From: Akkermansia muciniphila
GTDB lineage: Bacteria; Verrucomicrobiota; Verrucomicrobiia; Verrucomicrobiales; Akkermansiaceae
Assembly: GCA_945860285.1 (NCBI GenBank)
Contig: CAMAQB010000022.1
Span: forward strand, 1-41,113
Length of the DNA: 41,113 nucleotides
Reading direction: 5' to 3'
This document shows positions 21,925 to 30,150 of the stretch, piece after piece. Each line of letters starts with the position of its first letter. Positions within the stretch are counted from its first letter, which is position 1. Both the position numbers and the translations under genes were made by a program. The notes beneath the pieces are model-generated. The model saw only the letters and a list, made by a program, of their open reading frames with translations. It made no database searches and was not told where the DNA came from.

Positions 21925-24900
21925 TCATGACTGCGCGCTTTGGAAGGCTCCCGGCCAGCCACCGTGCTGGGAGATCACTTCGTCAATTTCCGCCATGAGG
22001 CGGATGGTTTCGGTGAGGGCGATGACGATTTTGTGGTAGTGGGCGATATCTTCGTCGGTCAGGGTGCGGCCTTTGCGGTCTTTGAGCCATTTCTCGCAGA
22101 CCTGATAGCCGCCGATATGGAAATTCCAGACGGCCTCGGGCACGCCCTTGAAACCGCTGCTGCCGGGGGCTTGGGCCATGTCTTTTTTCTTGGCCGGGGC
22201 ATCGATCCAGACGGTGTTGTCAGACCAGCCAATGCGGGTGACTTCCTTGGACCCGCCGATAAACTGGGTGATGGGCTTGTCGAGCTTGGGCGATTCCAGC
22301 AGGTGCAGGGCGGTGAGTTCGCCGCCGAGCCGGGCCAACGCGCGGAACAACTCCAGGTTCCCGGTCAACGGCAGGCGCGGGAAGTCGATCTTGAGAAACT
22401 CGGCGTAGCGCGAGCGGTAGCCGGGACTGTGGAAGACGGCGTAGATATAGTGGAAGATGTCTTCGGGGGTGAGGGATTTCGAAGCGTCGGAGTGAGAATC
22501 TTTGAAATCGTTAGCAAGCTGGAGAGCAAAATTTGGACTGAAATTCGTCTCCGTCTTTTCCATGTTCAGGAAAGTTCCCTGAGCTGCTTTTTTGGGATTC
22601 CCAGCATAAAGCGGAAAAATTCTGTTCTGCTCCTTGGTCCTGTTCGAGACAAAGCACATTTCTGTTGGATGGCGCGTCACTAACACGTGGCAATACGGTA
22701 ACTTGGAAAGTTGACGAGGCAGGCAAAGAGCTAGATTGTTCTTGATGTCTATAAGAGGCTGATTTACTTGAAACTGGGGACGCGCCAATGTCAGCTTACT
22801 GAAATAGGTATATCTGATATCGAATGGGCGGTAAGACACTTTAGTAATTAACTCCTTATCCATCTTCACCCTCTTTGCATCAGCAAGCTTCCAATTAGTG
22901 TTATCAGTAAGATCATACTTCTCACGGATTTCCGCGTCAGATAGACTTGAGGTCATATCAACAATTCGTTGATTCGCCTCTTCATAGGTTTCACTTATTG
23001 AAATCTCGTCATTCCCGGTCATCATTCCCAGCGTCCCAATTTTGAAAACATTTTCCAAAGGCAGAAAATGCGACCAGTCCTTATCAGAATCTTCTGATAT
23101 TTGGGGTGTGAAGTAGAAAGCGTCAGAGGCCGGTGAAATCTGCTGAAAATTTATACTTGAAATGGTGCTCTTCGAAAGAAACGAGTACTTTGATTCTCTA
23201 TCACCACGAAGATCCGCGTGACTCAGAAAGTTTGATCTGGCTTGTGATCGAGATGAATCGGCAACTGAAATGCAAATCGCTGTACCTACCCTGATATCGA
23301 AAACATTTTCGTCACACTCACCCGAGTCATTTCGGATCGAGTTACCGTGAAGATCTAGTATAGTAGAATAAAAGTTATCGAGAAATGATTTTCTCATTCC
23401 TCGAAAAACAATTCCTGTCAGCCAGTTGTGATTAGCGATTATTCCTACGACTCCAAATCCACTTTGGGATACCAAGTGTTGTGAGAGGCGGAAGAATTTA
23501 CAGTAGTCGTCCATCAATGGGGCAATCCTCTTTTCTTGGATTCGAACCCCGTCAATCTGCTTATATCCATCCATCAGCTGTTGGATCCACTCGCTCTGAT
23601 TGGAAGAATAGACACTATATGGCGGATTCCCAATGACCACCGTAAACCGCTTATGCCGTTTGATTTCGTTCACGGCGGCGGCTTCGTGGGCGAGGGCGTC
23701 GAAGCCGATAAGCGGGAGTTGTTTCTGCCACGGTTCGAGGGCGTTGGTGAGGTAGATGCGGGCGCGTTCCTCGGTGGCGAACTTGTAGCCGGTTTCGGCG
23801 AGCTTGAGGCCGATTTTCATGTGGGCGATGGCGTAGGGGGCCATCATCAGCTCGAAGGCGTGGAGGCGGGGGAGGAGGCATTTTGGGACGTAGGCGTTCC
23901 AGTAGCTGGTGAAATCGGATTGATGATTGCCGATTGATGATTGTTGATTTTTGATCTTTGGCATGGCGGCTGCGCCGCGTTTTTTCCAGAGGTCCTTGAG
24001 GTAGTTGAAGATGACGTCGATGACTTCGACGGGGAAGGTGGCGGTACCGGTGGCCGGGTCGAGGATCTGGACGAAGAATTCGTCGGGGGAGATGGTTTCG
24101 GTGCAGCCGGGTTCGTCGGTGAGGGGAGGAAGTTTGATTTCCGATTGAGGATTGTTGATTTTGGATTTTTGAATGAATTCGCCCCAGGTGATGGTGTCGG
24201 CGAGGCCGTGTTCGAGGCCGAACTCGGTTTTGAGGAGTTCGTCCACGGAGCGGACGATGTAGGAGACGACGGGCTGCGGGGTGTAGAAGACGCCGCGCTG
24301 GATTCTCAGGGCTTTGTTGTAGGCGTTGAGGAAGTGCTCGTAGAAGTGGATGACGGGATCGTCGCCACGGGTCTTGTTGCCGAAGTCGCGCAGGATGGCG
24401 GGGAGGTCAGTTTCCTCGCCGCGCAGGAGTTCCACCACGTCTTGGACGCCGAGTTCGTCGAAGTCGATGCCGCCCTTGCGCCCGCCCGCATGGAGGAAGG
24501 TCTGGAGCATCTCCTTGAGGAAGGGATTGGTGACGGGCACCATGTCGGAGATGTTGCTGGCGACGAGGGCAGTGCCTTTGCGGCCCTCTGACATTTCTGT
24601 GCGGGAAATGGCCGCGGTGAGCAGGCCGTAGGTGATGGTCTGGGCGTAGGTGTCGGCAAATCCTTCCGGGGTGAGGTCGTGGATGAGATTGGTCTGGAAG
24701 GCGCGGTGGAGTTTCGTGAGCGGGCCGCGCTCCGTCTCATGCTGCATGATGGTGGTGGCGGCATCGCGGATGCGCTTGGCGAGGGCGGCCATGGCCTCGG
24801 CCAGCATGTCGGAGGTGCGGATGATGTGGCCGATGCGGTGCTTGAACGCTCCGGCCCAGCGCTGCTGCCAGACGTCGAGCTTCTCACCTTTCTCGGGCCA

Positions 24901-25413
24901 ACTGAGTCGCTCGCGCAGGGTGGCGGCGACGGTGTTGAGCTTCATGGTTGTGTCTGCGCCATCCCAACCGAGCACGCGGAGGCTGGGGAGGTCACCGGAC
25001 TCCTGATGGAAGTGGGCGAAGCCGATTTCACGCCCGTCCTCATCCTCGGGGCCGAAGGCGGAGACAAAGAGGAGGTCCTCTGCATTCCAGACCGCGCGGT
25101 CGGCCTTGTTGGCAGAGGCGCGTTTCTTCACCACGAGGTGAGAAAGGATGCGGCGGAGGACGACGACCGGGAGTTTTTTCTTATCGAACTCGATGAAGAA
25201 GATGCCCCAAGGCTGGCTGGATGTTAGTGGGCGGAGCTGGCGGATGGATTTCACCTTTGCCGCCTCTTCTTCCTTAAGACCAAGATCGGCGGGCTCGTAG
25301 TCGAAGGTGAGGTCTTCCATTTCATAGCCATCGAGAGGCCAGCCGAGTTCGTCCTCCAGATAGCGGATGAGGGCGGTGAAGTTGCGAACGTTGCGGAGAT
25401 CGGGCGCGGGCAT
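21925..25413 (-). CDS. N6-adenine DNA methylase with specificity region (type ISP-like, methylase half)
   Basis: A 1162-residue DNA methyltransferase. Residues 1-370 are a helical/mixed N-terminal region (NFTALIRYLEDELGWPLDGY). The methylase core follows: motif X-like region RGVFYTPQPVVSYIVRSVDE (373-392), motif I ILDPATGTATF (450-460) and catalytic motif IV VVIGNPPYS (592-600). About 550 residues after NPPY are expected to carry target recognition. It resembles the methylase half of single-chain type ISP enzymes, but lacks nuclease and helicase parts; those are in the gene at 26989-30150. Two loops (residues 416-431 and 486-501) are encoded by copies of an AT-rich repeat. The segment 22490-23640 is clearly more AT-rich than the rest. 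Start is 33 bp after the SecB-like stop. Last gene of the operon. Confidence 0.9.
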   Translation of the reverse strand: MPAPDLRNVRNFTALIRYLEDELGWPLDGYEMEDLTFDYEPADLGLKEEEAAKVKSIRQLRPLTSSQPWGIFFIEFDKKKLPVVVLRRILSHLVVKKRASANKADRAVWNAEDLLFVSAFGPEDEDGREIGFAHFHQESGDLPSLRVLGWDGADTTMKLNTVAATLRERLSWPEKGEKLDVWQQRWAGAFKHRIGHIIRTSDMLAEAMAALAKRIRDAATTIMQHETERGPLTKLHRAFQTNLIHDLTPEGFADTYAQTITYGLLTAAISRTEMSEGRKGTALVASNISDMVPVTNPFLKEMLQTFLHAGGRKGGIDFDELGVQDVVELLRGEETDLPAILRDFGNKTRGDDPVIHFYEHFLNAYNKALRIQRGVFYTPQPVVSYIVRSVDELLKTEFGLEHGLADTITWGEFIQKSKINNPQSEIKLPPLTDEPGCTETISPDEFFVQILDPATGTATFPVEVIDVIFNYLKDLWKKRGAAAMPKIKNQQSSIGNHQSDFTSYWNAYVPKCLLPRLHAFELMMAPYAIAHMKIGLKLAETGYKFATEERARIYLTNALEPWQKQLPLIGFDALAHEAAAVNEIKRHKRFTVVIGNPPYSVYSSNQSEWIQQLMDGYKQIDGVRIQEKRIAPLMDDYCKFFRLSQHLVSQSGFGVVGIIANHNWLTGIVFRGMRKSFLDNFYSTILDLHGNSIRNDSGECDENVFDIRVGTAICISVADSSRSQARSNFLSHADLRGDRESKYSFLSKSTISSINFQQISPASDAFYFTPQISEDSDKDWSHFLPLENVFKIGTLGMMTGNDEISISETYEEANQRIVDMTSSLSDAEIREKYDLTDNTNWKLADAKRVKMDKELITKVSYRPFDIRYTYFSKLTLARPQFQVNQPLIDIKNNLALCLPRQLSKLPYCHVLVTRHPTEMCFVSNRTKEQNRIFPLYAGNPKKAAQGTFLNMEKTETNFSPNFALQLANDFKDSHSDASKSLTPEDIFHYIYAVFHSPGYRSRYAEFLKIDFPRLPLTGNLELFRALARLGGELTALHLLESPKLDKPITQFIGGSKEVTRIGWSDNTVWIDAPAKKKDMAQAPGSSGFKGVPEAVWNFHIGGYQVCEKWLKDRKGRTLTDEDIAHYHKIVIALTETIRLMAEIDEVISQHGGWPGAFQSAQS
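23917..23959 (-). repeat. dispersed AT-rich repeat, copy inside methylase gene (1)
   Basis: On the minus strand this copy contains AAAATCAACAATCATCAATC followed by GGCAATC, 25 of 27 positions shared with the copy at 24131-24178. It encodes the low-complexity loop KIKNQQSSIGNHQSD between methylase motifs I and IV. Confidence 0.8.
24131..24178 (-). repeat. dispersed AT-rich repeat, copy inside methylase gene (2)
   Basis: On the minus strand this copy contains AAAATCAACAATCCTCAATC followed by GGAAATC. It encodes QKSKINNPQSEIK just before methylase motif I. A third copy, AAAATCAACAATCGTCAAAC followed by GGAAATC, lies at 9466-9531 upstream of the IS91-type remnant. Confidence 0.8.
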
Positions 25414-25446: not shown

Positions 25447-25986
25447 TTAGGGTTTTTTACTTTTGGCTTGGTTGGCTACCTTAGCTGCTGGCTTTGTGGC
25501 AGCGGCGTTGGACTTCCTCACCGCAGTGCTCTGAGCCTCTGGAGCTTGGGCAGCAGGTAAGGGAGGAAGGTCTGTGAGAAAATTCGTGGAAGGAATGATC
25601 ACGGCAGCCCATGGGCCGCGCCCCGTGGCAGCGCGTATGATTTCGCGAGCGGCGCCGAAGAGCATGGCGGGGCCGTTGGCATGGATGAATCGCTGGAGCT
25701 TGGGACCCTCCAGATGTGGTGCCGCAATGACGATGCCCTGGATTTCCAGATGGAAAGAATAGGGAAGGTTTGCGCCCTCGGGAATGTTTTGCACGATATC
25801 CAGAGAGACAATCCACTCCGTAGCGCCCTGCTGGGATGGGTCTTTGGGGTTTTCGTGATATTTTGCTGTGACTTGTAGCGAATCCTCGGGAGCGGGGCAC
25901 GATTGATCATTGAGGAAACGAGGGTTCGCTTGCAGTGTCAGGTGCGTGATGTAGTAATCGACGAGTTGTAATGGTGCTAGTTTCAT
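25447..25986 (-). CDS. SecB-like chaperone of a toxin-antitoxin-chaperone module
   Basis: A 179-residue SecB-fold protein. I start at the ATG at 25986, which overlaps the antitoxin stop (ATGA); the frame is open to 26025 but would extend further into the antitoxin gene. SecB-like features are a first strand MKLAPLQLVDYYITHLTLQA, a central YSFHLEIQGIV, and the family's most conserved segment ANGPAMLFGAAREIIRAATG followed by RGPW and IIPSTNF (near 109-142). The C-terminal tail (about 145-179) is alanine/lysine-rich and not SecB-like. In TAC systems such SecB-like proteins fold and protect the antitoxin. Downstream of antitoxin and toxin in the classic T-A-C order, and 33 bp upstream of the methylase. 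Confidence 0.85.
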   Translation of the reverse strand: MKLAPLQLVDYYITHLTLQANPRFLNDQSCPAPEDSLQVTAKYHENPKDPSQQGATEWIVSLDIVQNIPEGANLPYSFHLEIQGIVIAAPHLEGPKLQRFIHANGPAMLFGAAREIIRAATGRGPWAAVIIPSTNFLTDLPPLPAAQAPEAQSTAVRKSNAAATKPAAKVANQAKSKKP

Positions 25987-26507
25987 TCTCCTACTGCTTG
26001 TTCCCTGGTGTTTTGATCGAGCCATTTTTCCGATTCCCGTGCCGTTGGCCAGCGTTGAGAGAAATCGAAGGGGATGACGTTTGCCGAGCGCTGCGTGAAG
26101 GCATGTGCGGTGGTGGCAGATGAGACAGGATCCGAGGTGGCCATCAGATCTTGCGGGGTGATGATTTGGTCATGCAACAAGCGCATGAGCTTGTTGACGA
26201 TGCCGGATGGCAGTCCGCGTCCGCTTTCCCAGCGTGGGATGGATTTTTCTCCGCAGTCGAGTAGCTTTGCGAAGGAATACTGAGTGAGATTCAGGCGTTT
26301 GCGCAGATCGCGGATGTCCTTTCCATGAAGAAAACCCATGTGGTGAGCGCGCGTGCGTTCGATGAGTTCGGAGGACTCTGCGGTGAGGAACTCCTCGCCG
26401 AAGTTTTCATAGACCTCAACTTCGATGGTTTCTACGAGTTTGGCAGGTGTAGCTGCCGTGGCAGGCAAGTAGATGTCGAAGGGGACTTTCTTGGTGCTGT
26501 GGTTCAT
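25983..26507 (-). CDS. XRE-family antitoxin (MqsA/HigA-like)
   Basis: A 174-residue DNA-binding protein predicted to neutralise the toxin encoded just upstream and to autoregulate. The helix-turn-helix lies at residues 62-112: GKDIRDLRKRLNLTQYSFAK, then LLDCGEKSIPRWESGRGLPS, the MqsA/HigA-like XRE pattern with recognition helix KSIPRWESG. The N-terminal ~55 residues (EVEVYENFGEEFLTAESSEL) lack the cysteine pairs of the zinc domain in Escherichia coli MqsA. The C-terminal ~50 residues (after 125) are hydrophilic and could be the chaperone-addiction segment that makes TAC antitoxins depend on SecB. Start and stop both overlap neighbours by 4 bp (ATGA). Confidence 0.85.
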   Translation of the reverse strand: MNHSTKKVPFDIYLPATAATPAKLVETIEVEVYENFGEEFLTAESSELIERTRAHHMGFLHGKDIRDLRKRLNLTQYSFAKLLDCGEKSIPRWESGRGLPSGIVNKLMRLLHDQIITPQDLMATSDPVSSATTAHAFTQRSANVIPFDFSQRWPTARESEKWLDQNTREQAVGE

Positions 26508-26929
26508 TTTTTCCGTTTTTTGCTTTTGTTTGCTAGGTAGTCGTGGATCGCAGTGCGGAGGTCGCCTTTGCGGTCGATGTGGAGAGAAAACAAGTTGAGG
26601 ATGACTTTGTTTTGGTGAAGGCCGATTTTAACATAGACATCGGTGGGGGATCCGAGTGGGTGTGCGCCGAGCATGGCCCAGGTTTCGCAGTGGGTTTGAT
26701 CGTGTTGATCATACATTCCTGTGATCATCTCACCGCAGATGCCGGGAGTGTTGAGTAGATCAATGCAGTAATCATATGCTTGTTCCTTAGATTTGAATCC
26801 GAAGTGGTGAAATTCCTGCTCTGCGGTGTACGTCCATCGGATATTGCGAATGTCGCCATCTCGCAAAATTTCCACCACGATTTTGAACCAGCGTTGTGGA
26901 ACGGGAGCGATGCGTTTTTTGGCAGACAT
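26504..26929 (-). CDS. MqsR-like toxin of a toxin-antitoxin-chaperone module
   Basis: A 141-residue basic protein. The central part (residues 14-117) fits the MqsR/RelE-type fold: KIVVEILRDGDIRNIRWTYT, then FHHFGFKSKEQAYDYCIDLL, and a last strand pair DVYVKIGLHQNKVILNLFS that parallels the VYLKI...LIVSF ending of MqsR. MqsR is an mRNA-cleaving toxin; whether this one cleaves RNA is not shown, and catalytic residues cannot be assigned by eye. It is longer than MqsR (98 aa), with a basic tail KSKKRKK. The stop codon overlaps the antitoxin start by 4 bp. A 59-bp AT-rich gap separates it from the helicase gene, room for a TAC promoter. Confidence 0.65.
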   Translation of the reverse strand: MSAKKRIAPVPQRWFKIVVEILRDGDIRNIRWTYTAEQEFHHFGFKSKEQAYDYCIDLLNTPGICGEMITGMYDQHDQTHCETWAMLGAHPLGSPTDVYVKIGLHQNKVILNLFSLHIDRKGDLRTAIHDYLANKSKKRKK

Positions 26930-26949: not shown

Positions 26950-26961
26950 TACCAATTGATA
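26950..26961. promoter_or_regulatory. candidate operator upstream of the toxin gene
   Basis: TACCAATTGATA is an imperfect palindrome (10 of 12 positions symmetric, centre CAATTG) 20 bp upstream of the toxin start in an AT-rich gap. XRE antitoxins normally bind such dyads to autoregulate; assignment is inference. Confidence 0.3.
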
Positions 26962-26988
26962 CTTTTTTGGCAAATGTTTTTTTAAGAA

Positions 26989-29900
26989 TTAGGAAATTTC
27001 CATCCAGCACTTCAAAACAGGCGAGATGCCGACGGGGGCTTGGAGAGAGCGGAGGTGAGTTTTGATGAGTTCCTTTTCGATCTTCTCCCGCAGCTTGGAA
27101 AGGCCGGCACGATCCAAGGAATGGTGAATGCCCGTATCTGGCAGCGAGCGAATGAGGGCGGCAATGGTGCGTGGGGTATCGGCGATAGCTTTGGCTTCGG
27201 GATCGGTGCAGAGCCAGACGGTTTCCCCGGCGGACTCGGACCAGCGGGCTGCTCCGTCGGCTGCTTCCATCAGATCGGGATCAGGATGCGGGATGCGGAA
27301 GCAGAAAAAGACAGCACGGATACCGGACTGCGGGGTCTTCCGACCCGAGAACATTTTGAGTGGCAGTCCCGGAAGTTGTGCGGCCAGAGCGGGGTGAAGG
27401 CGGACGAGTTCCTCATACTCGAGGCGCAGAGCCTCGCTTTCGCTTTCCTGTCCTTCGTATTGCTCATTGATCTCCTTGATGGGATCGAACTCATCATCAG
27501 GTGTGAGGAGCTTGCGGCCCTCGATGCCGAAGGTGCGGGAGATGACGAGAGTCTTGCGGTTCACGCGATTGTAGAGGCGGAGGAGGCTGTCGAGCTCGTC
27601 GGGCGGGAGGAAGTTCCAATAAATGATCTTGCCGCGTGAGTCGGCGAGGTGGGGATGAGCGGCGAGCAGAGCCTTTTCCGTCTCGGGGTTCACGCGGCGA
27701 TCCACACGACCGATGCGCTGCATGAGGCGTACTGGATTCCAATGAAGGTCGAAGTTGATGAGGCGGTCGGCATCTTGAAGGTTCAGGCCTTCTGCAAGCA
27801 CATCAGTAGCAATGAGCACCAGGATTTCGTTTTGCCCATTCTCAGTCAACTCGGAGGAGGAAAGGCCATTGTAGAATGGTGAGAAGCGGTGAATGACGCT
27901 GCTGCGCACTCGCTGACTGCAACTGCCGTCGATGCGCTCGACGCCAAAAATGCCTGCCTTCTTGAGTTGCTGGTCGAGATACCAAGCGGTGTCGGCGAAC
28001 TCGGTAAAGATGATGACCTTGCGGTTTTTCAATTCTTTGTCGGACTTGAGCATCTTCACTAGAGCTTTGAGCTTGTCATCCTTTGCAGGATCGACCTTGG
28101 CACCGAGGTTGAGGAAATCGACGATCTGGTCGAGATCCATGAATGTTTCATCGAGAATCTCATCCACCTTATAAAGTTCTGGGTCGAGGCGCTCGACGGC
28201 ATCAAGATCATCTTGGGTGATGAAGTCTTCATCTTCGTCATGGCTTCCGCTTTCGTCGGACGGCCAGAGTTCGGGTTGGTGCTGGGTGGCATAGCCGATG
28301 AGCTTGTCATTCTTTGATTTCCATCGCTCCAAGCGGCGCTTGTCGTGCTCGCTGCTGGTGTGGACTTCCACCCAAGACAGTAGCTTCTTCAGCAAACGCC
28401 AACACGACTGCTCGAAGGCATGGGCGGAGCTTTCGAAGCGCTTCAAGAACTGAGTGCGAACGAGAGAGACAACTTGGGCCTGGCGACCCGTATTGAAGGA
28501 TTCCAGCTCTGGCGCATCCGTCGGGCCTTTCCAGTAGGCAAGCGGATAATAGATGCTCAGCGCGAACAATGGCTTAGTACGGCTGAATGCCTGCTCCACG
28601 GATTCCAGCAAGCGTCCATAGGTAATTTTGAGCTTGTAGGGTGCCACGCGCGGGGCTTCGCGCGTGGGGAAAACGACGAGACCTCCCGCACAAGCACTCT
28701 CGCTTTTCTTCACATAGACGCGGGAACGCTGAACGACGAGTTTTTCGAAGATAAGGTCTTTTTGAAGCGCGTCTTCCGCGCGGAAAAGTTCGCTGGCCTC
28801 GTTCTCTATTGAGGCCTCGGGTGATTGGAGCAGAGACTTTTCCAATTGTACAAAATGGGCGCGGAGATTATGGATACCGAGATTCCGCGTGCCGGTGGCG
28901 AAGTAGGCATCATCACCATTGGTGCGCAGTTCCAGAATGTGGCGGAAGTCGTGGACTCCGTTGTTGATCGGTGTGGCGGTGAGAAGGAATATCTGTTTTT
29001 CGCGTCCTCCCGGCTGATTGAGATATTGCTGTAGCTTCCGGTAGCGGGATTCCTCTTTTTCGCCCTCTCCGGCACCGCCGGGATTGCGGAAGTGGTGAGC
29101 CTCGTCAATGAGTATGACATCAGCATCACGAAGCGTGCGTTCCAAATCACGCGGGAAAGTGCCTTTACGCTGGAGGTCCGTGTGGTTGTAGGGAATGAAA
29201 GTGACGAAGCCGCTGTTCAGGTCAGGAAGCAGGCGCTCAATGACAGGAGCCCAAACATCTTCGCGGGCCGCTTTGGGAGCGAACAGCACGACACGTTTCC
29301 CTTCATGCATGACCATGCGTTCCAAGATCATGAGGCCTACATATGTCTTGCCAAGACCGACGCCGTCGCAAAGGAATGCGGCACCATACAAACGGGCGAT
29401 TTCGACCAAGTTTTTGTAGGCATCCTGCTGGTAGCGGGCGAGAATAGGGAAGATGATGGAGTGCTCGCGATCCCATTCATCGGGCGTGAGTTCGTGACCA
29501 CGGAGCAACTCATGGAGTGCCTTGAACCAGACCTCGAAAGGGGTGCGTGGATTCGTATGGCGCTCGAAAGTGCGGAGAACCTCGGCTGTGATGTCTTCCG
29601 ACTCGGTCCAATGCCGCTCATACCATTCCTGGAGAATCTTCACGTCATTGCCGCGAATCTGGACATTGAGTTCGACGTTATCCTCAAGGCCCGGCTTAGT
29701 GAAGTTCGACGAGCCCACTAGACCGAACGAACCGATGACAGCCTGCCGCGCATGAGTGAGGTAACACTTCGCGTGGAACTTATCTTTTCGATAGACGCGG
29801 CATTGGATTTTGCCTGAGCGCAGCGCTTCAACCACGGCAGGCACGCCAGACAAGAAGTCATTGGCTTTCTTCTCGCTCTCCAAGCTGGCATCCAGCGTGG

Positions 29901-30150
29901 TGGCGATCTTTTTCAGACCTTCCTCGAACGCACGCTTGGTGCGCTTGGAGACTTCATCACCCATGAGGAGGCGGATCGAATCGACCTGCTGCCATTTGTC
30001 TTTGAGTGCAAGCAAGGCACCAATTTCGAAGTATCCCGTGGCGATGTCGATGGTCTTCGAAAGCTCGCACCAATCCGTCAGGTAGTTGCGGACCTTCCAT
30101 TCGCTGTCGCTGTTATCAACGATGAAGAGTTCTGAGGCGGAAGCTGGCAT
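26989..30150 (-). CDS. PLD nuclease-SNF2 helicase fusion (restriction/defence)
   Basis: A 1053-residue fusion. Residues 1-200 form a phospholipase D-like nuclease domain with one HKD-type motif: FHAKCYL (H126, K128) and VGSSNFT (146-151). Residues ~235-870 are an SNF2-type superfamily 2 helicase/translocase: Walker A CDGVGLGKTYVGL (261-273), DEAH box LIDEAHHF (347-354), motif III LLTATPINN (389-397) and motif VI MQRIGRVDRRV (near 811-820). The C-terminal ~180 residues are of unknown fold. With one HKD motif, dimerisation would be expected. It probably supplies DNA translocation and cleavage for the methylase encoded downstream in the same operon. First gene of the operon; the toxin starts 59 bp after its stop. 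Confidence 0.92.
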   Translation of the reverse strand: MPASASELFIVDNSDSEWKVRNYLTDWCELSKTIDIATGYFEIGALLALKDKWQQVDSIRLLMGDEVSKRTKRAFEEGLKKIATTLDASLESEKKANDFLSGVPAVVEALRSGKIQCRVYRKDKFHAKCYLTHARQAVIGSFGLVGSSNFTKPGLEDNVELNVQIRGNDVKILQEWYERHWTESEDITAEVLRTFERHTNPRTPFEVWFKALHELLRGHELTPDEWDREHSIIFPILARYQQDAYKNLVEIARLYGAAFLCDGVGLGKTYVGLMILERMVMHEGKRVVLFAPKAAREDVWAPVIERLLPDLNSGFVTFIPYNHTDLQRKGTFPRDLERTLRDADVILIDEAHHFRNPGGAGEGEKEESRYRKLQQYLNQPGGREKQIFLLTATPINNGVHDFRHILELRTNGDDAYFATGTRNLGIHNLRAHFVQLEKSLLQSPEASIENEASELFRAEDALQKDLIFEKLVVQRSRVYVKKSESACAGGLVVFPTREAPRVAPYKLKITYGRLLESVEQAFSRTKPLFALSIYYPLAYWKGPTDAPELESFNTGRQAQVVSLVRTQFLKRFESSAHAFEQSCWRLLKKLLSWVEVHTSSEHDKRRLERWKSKNDKLIGYATQHQPELWPSDESGSHDEDEDFITQDDLDAVERLDPELYKVDEILDETFMDLDQIVDFLNLGAKVDPAKDDKLKALVKMLKSDKELKNRKVIIFTEFADTAWYLDQQLKKAGIFGVERIDGSCSQRVRSSVIHRFSPFYNGLSSSELTENGQNEILVLIATDVLAEGLNLQDADRLINFDLHWNPVRLMQRIGRVDRRVNPETEKALLAAHPHLADSRGKIIYWNFLPPDELDSLLRLYNRVNRKTLVISRTFGIEGRKLLTPDDEFDPIKEINEQYEGQESESEALRLEYEELVRLHPALAAQLPGLPLKMFSGRKTPQSGIRAVFFCFRIPHPDPDLMEAADGAARWSESAGETVWLCTDPEAKAIADTPRTIAALIRSLPDTGIHHSLDRAGLSKLREKIEKELIKTHLRSLQAPVGISPVLKCWMEIS

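Follow-up and report, generated by a model that had tools for sequence, protein, structure and literature searches.

What is a compact three-gene module with the features of a toxin-antitoxin system doing between two genes of a restriction cassette? The question is raised by a 41,113-nucleotide stretch of Akkermansia muciniphila DNA (contig CAMAQB010000022.1 of assembly GCA_945860285.1; hereafter, the whole stretch is called the window), in which three adjacent, co-directional minus-strand frames, recognized from the sequence and the frame list, encode a toxin (T), an antitoxin (A), and a chaperone (C) in the order T-A-C. The original prediction for this locus, made from the sequence alone, had suggested a separate subfamily of MqsR-type toxin-antitoxin-chaperone (TAC) systems. 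The gene order, the MqsA-family antitoxins, the SecB-like chaperones, and two toxin models with MqsR as their best match all bear this out, and a distinct MqsR-fold TAC subfamily is the best-supported reading of the module. With a probability of roughly 0.7, we further propose that it is an autonomous TAC in an exchangeable slot of the restriction cassette, the toxin of which would be freed when a phage captures the chaperone, thereby aiding restriction. As such, the module is likely an anti-phage dormancy switch, and it probably shuts down the cell on phage attack while the restriction enzymes handle the phage DNA.

Predicted toxin fold and module composition

The toxin gene (26504 to 26929, minus strand) encodes 141 amino acids (aa), for which we found no credible match in Pfam, NCBIfam, PADLOC, or the sequences of the PDB. 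The MqsR profile PF15723 did not match the window toxin at E ≤ 10 or any of 14 family toxins at E ≤ 1, and none of these 14 matched a relevant Pfam family (the short 89-aa toxin frame of locus L021 was kept out of the toxin alignment, but L021 was retained when junctions, operators, and tails were counted). Matches of the toxin to the PADLOC models CARF6 (0.013, partial), SpiD (0.32), and STAM1 (0.61) were set aside as weak, as were single-member Pfam matches to Anth_synt_I_N (0.0094) and Orthopox_A36R (0.13).

Structure prediction gave a clearer outcome. With AlphaFold2, we modeled the window toxin (pLDDT 86.5) and the toxin of relative L010 (pLDDT 91.4), which are 29% identical to each other, and aligned each model structurally to the 1000 PDB chains ranked highest by Foldseek. 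For both models, the best match was E. coli MqsR (3hi2_D), with Z 9.4 and an rmsd of 2.4 Å over 91 of 91 residues for the window toxin, and Z 9.8 and 2.3 Å over 90 of 91 residues for the L010 toxin; the next matches reached Z 5.7 and 6.3, respectively. The ranks below MqsR are filled mostly by what we take, judging by titles, to be RelE, ParE, HigB, YoeB, and YafQ toxins. A RelE assignment in place of MqsR was rejected on this comparison, in which RelE-type toxins fall clearly below MqsR. The resemblance to MqsR claimed by the original prediction therefore stands for the predicted fold and fails for the sequence, where PF15723 does not match and hhalign does not recover the relationship: the toxin is MqsR-like by predicted fold and lies outside the MqsR profile family. 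It is also longer than MqsR, as had been claimed (141 versus 98 aa), with an additional C-terminal helix predicted beyond the MqsR/BECR fold.

The predicted fold suggests that the toxin is an RNase. For MqsR itself, Lys56 and Tyr81 are described as the catalytic pair (PMC9636575). The residues that are invariant in the 14-row toxin alignment are P11, W14, V18, L22, F43, G66, K101, S115, and H117, and the active site probably lies around K101, S115, and H117. The likely counterpart of Tyr81 is Y99, a Tyr in the window and a Leu in L009 and L010, in a residue pairing that is itself indirect and uncertain by one position.

The antitoxin gene (25983 to 26507, minus strand, 174 aa) encodes a cysteine-less N-terminal domain followed by an MqsA-type helix-turn-helix (HTH). 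Its match to the MqsA-family model TIGR03830 has an E-value of 7.8e-14 at 51.6 bits, under the curated 61.8-bit cut-off, and a second MqsA-family match (TIGR03830 / PF15731) reaches 28.2 bits, under a 30-bit cut-off. Each of the 15 antitoxins scanned reaches E ≤ 0.001 with TIGR03830 (best 1.5e-17), and hhalign aligns the antitoxin alignment to the MqsA profile with a probability of 98.9% (E 2.7e-17). By these profile comparisons, the protein is a cysteine-poor relative of MqsA. The zinc-domain cysteines that had been reported missing are indeed absent, the window antitoxin having one cysteine overall and zero in its N-terminal domain. However, 4 of the 13 annotated MqsA sequences that we used as a yardstick also have no N-terminal cysteines, and since cysteine-less MqsA is thus known from two-gene mqsRA modules, the trait is not diagnostic of a subfamily.

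The third gene (25447 to 25986, minus strand, 179 aa) matches the SecB family PF02556 with an E-value of 1e-4 at 22.7 to 22.8 bits, just under the 26-bit cut-off, and 11 of 12 family chaperones match it at E ≤ 0.01; by this profile, the gene product is SecB-like. Its Lys/Ala-rich tail is as originally described: the 43 aa past the last conserved Phe carry a net charge of +5 and consist of 42% Lys plus Ala. Such a basic tail is not family-wide, because 6 of the 12 compared chaperones, window included, have a net negative tail and 6 a net positive one. The 179-aa protein starts at the ATG within an ATGA overlap; starting instead at an ATG further upstream (26025) would lengthen it to 192 aa, and we favor the shorter form because close relatives open with matching M-K/N-L-(S/A)-P residues. 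Behind the TAC module of L020/L071, there is a partial second chaperone copy (L071, 5651 to 5848) that is 78% identical over 69 aa.

Both predicted 4-base ATGA overlaps are present on the minus strand, joining the toxin stop to the antitoxin start at 26504 to 26507 and the antitoxin stop to the chaperone start at 25983 to 25986. With start codons of our own choosing, a 4-base overlap occurs between T and A in 10 of 15 modules (window included) and between A and C in 7 of 12. The compact overlapping layout appears to be a family habit, neither obligatory nor unique to the window. Since 4-base overlaps are frequent in bacterial operons, the ATGA junctions alone show nothing special, and the coupled translation of the three genes that had been derived from them is best worded as something they may allow. 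Evidence that the frames are genes comes from comparison with relatives L005 and L006, where pN is 0.16 to 0.17 and pS 0.60 to 0.77 for T, 0.19 to 0.22 and 0.62 to 0.70 for A, and 0.28 to 0.30 and 0.71 to 0.74 for C. Because pN lies well below pS in all three, these are selected genes rather than chance frames.

Relatives, antitoxin tails, and a conserved candidate operator

T-A-C modules of this family recur in Verrucomicrobiota. Our whole-genome searches covered this phylum; beyond it, we used a pattern scan of genome contigs and collections of plasmid, phage, and viral sequences. In 387 phylum genomes, the toxin alone recovered the window itself plus a good relative, L002 (40%), and a weaker one, L003; a further match, L004 (E 9.8e-4, one internal stop), was dismissed as a chance hit to a gene that resembles a membrane transporter. 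The contig scan, which used a pattern from a three-row alignment, found six loci. One lies in an Akkermansiaceae metagenome-assembled genome (MAG; L005, toxin 74%), another in a MAG of Prosthecobacter debontii (L006, toxin 73%), and two more, L007 and L008, seem to duplicate the modules of L002 and L003. With profiles, the family was detected in 11 genomes out of 367 from the phylum and later in 12 out of 384 from the class, of which 7 contributed fresh modules. All five relatives for which a taxon is named (L005 to L009) belong to Verrucomicrobiota, and the complete T-A-C order is present in 12 of the 15 modules gathered first and in 5 of the 7 found later.

A chaperone search placed a TAC on one viral contig (L011), and further viral scans gave no additional TAC match. 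Plasmid records held no match to the toxins of the window, L011, or L017, and phage records held none to the L011 toxin or to E. coli MqsR. A search for the MqsR family in 19 related genomes, in which no control gave a signal, was uninformative. Beside two other family TAC modules, we noted DUF3800 and Abi_2 genes (L069, 9214 to 9885, and L070, 5942 to 6880).

Because some relatives have no chaperone gene, the family forms a natural series with and without C. When 12 chaperones were searched by tblastn against the three chaperone-less modules among the first 15, nothing better than E 0.088 was found. In the toxin tree, the chaperone-less modules L008 and L009 cluster with L010 and L015, which have a chaperone (support 93/96, with an unresolved fork); this pattern suggests chaperone gain or loss inside the family.

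TAC antitoxins are described as carrying C-terminal chaperone-addiction (ChAD) tails (PMC5105189). The 53-aa C-terminal extension of the window antitoxin (25986 to 26144, minus strand) is a candidate for such a region on the basis of a tail comparison across the 15 first and 7 fresh modules. Among the first 15, the 12 antitoxins with a chaperone have tails of 44 to 90 aa with 3 to 9 aromatic residues, versus 18 to 37 aa and 1 to 2 aromatics in the 3 without. The five fresh chaperone-bearing modules have tails of 42, 44, 52, 107, and 23 aa, where the 107 aa of L128 reflect an overlong antitoxin frame and the 23 aa of L129 are a length exception among chaperone-bearers; their aromatic counts, in a different order, are 6, 2, 8, 0, and 3, the 8 stemming from the overlong frame. 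The two fresh modules without a chaperone have tails of 30 and 14 aa with 0 aromatics. Altogether, 15 of the 17 antitoxins encoded with a chaperone have at least 3 aromatics, and all 5 encoded without one have at most 2. The association of an aromatic tail with the chaperone is thus a trend, exceptionless in the first 15 modules and broken by two of the five fresh chaperone-bearers. As a separate observation, an Ala-Ala C-terminus, which resembles a protease tag, ends 9 of 17 chaperone-bearing and 1 of 5 chaperone-less antitoxins, whose tails are otherwise dissimilar.

Upstream of the toxin, the DNA is conserved as well. The near-palindrome TATCAATTGGTA lies 20 bases before the toxin ATG (26950 to 26961), and just upstream of it is TTGCCA, a possible -35 element (26968 to 26973, minus strand); a TTGAC-like box occupies the corresponding place just upstream of the operator in several relatives. 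When the DNA ahead of the toxin gene is aligned for the window, L005, and L006, all three share GTATCAATTGGTAA, despite a different upstream gene in L005, and we broadened this motif to the palindromic TAYCAATTGRTA once other members had been inspected. Of the first 15 modules, 11 carry an exact copy upstream of T or at its annotated start (window, L005 to L011, L017, L018, and L020), with variant palindromes at the operator site in L015 (one mismatch), L016, and L019, and no exact copy in L021. The motif was then found in all 7 fresh modules, which were fetched after it had been set. All 24 exact matches in 119 sequences (744,265 bases, many overlapping) fall on sites of this kind, and the whole 3.7-Mb assembly has one copy, that of the window. 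On its simplest reading, the candidate operator would be the site of autorepression by the HTH antitoxin. Since the longest toxin frame starts before the operator in L007 and L008 and inside it in L020, the position of the operator may also bear on the true toxin starts in these three modules.

A predicted restriction cassette with a variable slot

The module is enclosed by two large genes on the same strand. Upstream, 59 bases before T, lies a 1053-aa protein with a PLD-like domain and an SNF2/DEAD helicase (26989 to 30150, minus strand); downstream, 33 bases past C, lies a 1162-aa N6-adenine methyltransferase with a type ISP specificity domain (21925 to 25413, minus strand), which matches PF18135 (3.8e-74), Eco57I (4.4e-9), and a PADLOC type IIG model (2.5e-179). 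From these domains, we take the cassette to restrict DNA. It is bordered by UbiA, ABC-transporter, cyclophilin, and radical-SAM genes, and in a genome of the same genus (G313, locus L067), the UbiA and cyclophilin genes adjoin directly, which suggests that the cassette was inserted. The Prosthecobacter MAG L006 has the identical five-gene order helicase-T-A-C-methyltransferase, and the toxin gene thus sits inside a restriction-type locus, as assigned by domains, in the window and in L006.

With the helicase as query, we recovered 15 further cassettes with identities from about 50% upward (4 among 288 genomes of the phylum and 11 more among 384 of the class), all with a methyltransferase match downstream, in some cases to the N-terminal part only. 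Four helicase matches of about 30% identity (L028 to L031, the same as L063 to L066) were left out of the tally; no convincing relative of the window methyltransferase stands beside them, with one weak partial match. In the 15 cassettes, the slot is empty in three (L108, L112, and L115) and otherwise holds a DUF1016 nuclease (L059 and L113), Fic (L107 and L114), NYN (L106 and L111), a zeta toxin next to a gene of 68 aa (L062), a ParE-like toxin together with an 83-aa gene and a stretch matching the methyltransferase start (L110), Schlafen/AlbA_2 (L061), DUF3800 (L060), DUF6998 (L109), or AAA_21 with DUF4276 (L116). The contents are toxin- or nuclease-like in 8 of 15. The slot between the helicase and methyltransferase genes is variable and probably exchangeable.

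The flanking genes themselves show further variation. Between the window and L006, DNA identity along the methyltransferase gene (21925 to 25413) is 0.88 to 0.98 at 24650 to 23651, 0.52 to 0.55 at 23650 to 22401, and 0.83 to 0.84 at the end, a mosaic suggesting that the catalytic core was exchanged between differing specificity regions; for the helicase, it is 0.51 to 0.68. In L060 (3952 to 7491), two separate frames, of 542 and 632 aa, encode the methyltransferase. Genome G650 has both a helicase cassette with a ParE-like toxin-antitoxin pair in the slot (L110) and, on another contig, a stand-alone family TAC (L130), and the L010 module (L075, 2873 to 8840) lies directly behind HsdR-, DUF1016-, and HsdS-like genes. 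A plasmid search with the helicase gave no match at E ≤ 1e-100.

Proposed mechanism, alternatives, and known systems

Under the proposed mechanism, which is drawn by analogy from characterized TACs, the MqsA-like antitoxin would bind the toxin and neutralize it, while its HTH would bind operator DNA (TATCAATTGRTA at 26950 to 26961) and repress the module. The C-terminal tail would make the folding or stability of the antitoxin dependent on the co-transcribed SecB-like chaperone. Once a phage product occupies the chaperone, the antitoxin would misfold or be degraded, and the freed MqsR-fold toxin would cleave RNA and stop translation; this stall would buy restriction the time to destroy the phage DNA, or would abort the infection where restriction fails. 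What the analysis shows is the gene layout, the predicted fold, the conservation of the operator, the cassette context, and the variability of the slot; DNA restriction by the cassette, RNase activity, operator binding, chaperone dependence, a phage trigger, and cooperation with restriction are inferred.

Several results weigh against this picture. With respect to the fold, the Foldseek ranking gave neither toxin model a match at E ≤ 0.001 and placed HigB2 first for the window toxin and RelE first, with MqsR second, for the L010 toxin. In hhalign, the toxin alignment scored 12.0 against a 14-row MqsR profile, within the range of 60 column shuffles of that profile (median 11.1, maximum 17.3), and 9.7 against a single MqsR sequence; a single E. 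coli RelE scored higher, at 22.4 (E 0.0027, probability 11%, uncalibrated). Moreover, strand 65-74, which should bear the counterpart of MqsR Lys56, has no conserved Lys in the 14-row alignment. With respect to regulation, a promoter and terminator scan gave nothing above shuffles, with no consensus promoter scored, and the antitoxins that break the aromatic-tail rule are L127 (2 aromatics) and L129 (0). With respect to the cassette, no TAC occupies any of the 15 helicase-found cassettes, the slot holds one in the window and L006 alone, and L006 was located through its toxin rather than its helicase; the empty site is seen in one of nine other genomes of the genus, the other eight having their flank matches on separate contigs.

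Possible, if clearly less probable than an active defense role, is that the TAC is a selfish addiction element which landed in the cassette and stabilizes it, with no restriction link and no phage role. In keeping with this, the TAC moves apart from the cassette (neither a helicase nor a methyltransferase is present in the 10.4 kb of L005, the toxin of which is 74% identical), no restriction pair was noticed beside the other listed stand-alone modules, and the TAC has its own operator. Yet the other toxins and nucleases found in the same gap elsewhere suggest, as judged without a background test, that such genes are selected there, and characterized TACs are reported to act on phages (PMC9519451, PMC11980606, and PMC10783111). 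A tentative extension, to which we give slightly less weight, takes restriction and dormancy as one evolved machine: a dedicated slot would take up second-line effector modules (MqsR-fold TAC, zeta-kinase and ParE-like toxin-antitoxin pairs, Fic, NYN, and DUF1016), their release would be tied to what becomes of the restriction system, and the chaperone would sense a phage structural protein.

We regard as improbable a guard arrangement like that of PrrC, in which the helicase/methyltransferase complex restrains the antitoxin or toxin until phage anti-restriction proteins free the toxin. The location between two restriction genes is repeated in two lineages, and there is the PrrC-PrrI precedent together with a coupling hypothesis (PMC3506569), but a full antitoxin and a chaperone on site make a restriction-dependent inhibitor unnecessary, and near TAC relatives have no adjoining restriction genes. 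That the 179-aa protein is the export SecB of the cell, lying by chance beside a toxin-antitoxin pair, is very unlikely: it is the best SecB match in a 98%-complete genome, the sole other match being weak (E 0.6), but its gene overlaps that of the antitoxin, it scores below the cut-off for SecB, and its relatives accompany the toxin-antitoxin pair. Least credible is a CmdT-like ADP-ribosyltransferase and thus a relative of CmdTAC, likewise a TAC of three genes that include one for a SecB-like chaperone (PMC9519451), given that MqsR is the top match of both toxin models, followed mostly by toxins of the RelE/ParE/HigB type, and that the antitoxin is MqsA-like.

If the autonomous phage-responsive TAC is the right interpretation, a toxin subfamily overlooked by the profile libraries searched joins the TAC phage-defense class and brings a specific candidate operator. 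Its new elements are the TAYCAATTGRTA operator, a TAC between restriction genes, the variable slot, and the aromatic-poor tails of chaperone-less relatives; the operator, the setting in a restriction locus, and the slot go beyond the original prediction. Among the listed titles and abstract openings, and with subscription journals mostly outside the scope, we did not meet this arrangement in the literature on TAC and MqsRAC, on TAC in connection with restriction or defense islands, on toxins or accessory genes of restriction and BREX loci, or on TAC in Verrucomicrobiota.

Among known systems, E. coli K-12 MqsRA resembles the window in toxin fold (3hi2) and antitoxin homology (the hhalign match above), but differs in its 98-aa toxin with Lys56 and Tyr81, its N-terminal cysteines, and the lack of a chaperone gene in the K-12 record. 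The CmdTAC system (PD-T4-9) shares the three-gene layout with a SecB-like chaperone, whereas its toxin is ADP-ribosyltransferase-like (PMC9519451), a fold that does not appear among the listed matches of the window toxin, for which BECR is best. As in PrrC/PrrI, an RNA-targeting toxin gene would lie inside a restriction locus (PMC3506569), but in the window it comes with a full antitoxin and a chaperone. The same article, from 2012, proposes a coupling of immunity and dormancy and notes the absence of typical antitoxins from immunity loci; with a full toxin-antitoxin module inside an immunity locus, the window would run counter to that description, and perhaps L062 and L110 as well.

Closest of all are MqsRAC of E. 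coli C496_10 (PMC9519451 and PMC10783111) and the MqsRA-type TAC of PMC5105189, which have the same order of toxin, MqsA-type antitoxin, and SecB-like chaperone, and for the latter of which antitoxin C-terminal extensions are described as well. The window is set apart by a toxin outside the MqsR profile, a cysteine-less antitoxin N-terminus, TAYCAATTGRTA, and the cassette setting, a distinction that is drawn from descriptions and between systems that may share some of these traits. HigBAC is reported to be triggered by the lambda major tail protein (PMC11980606), and MqsRAC to block phage T2 (PMC9519451) with help from restriction systems, mainly McrBC (PMC10783111). A restriction cassette linked to the TAC is in keeping with such cooperation, which was reported with the TAC on a plasmid and the systems of an E. 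coli host (PMC10783111). In the window, the slot is physically linked to the restriction genes and variable among relatives, which makes cooperation between TAC and restriction directly testable.

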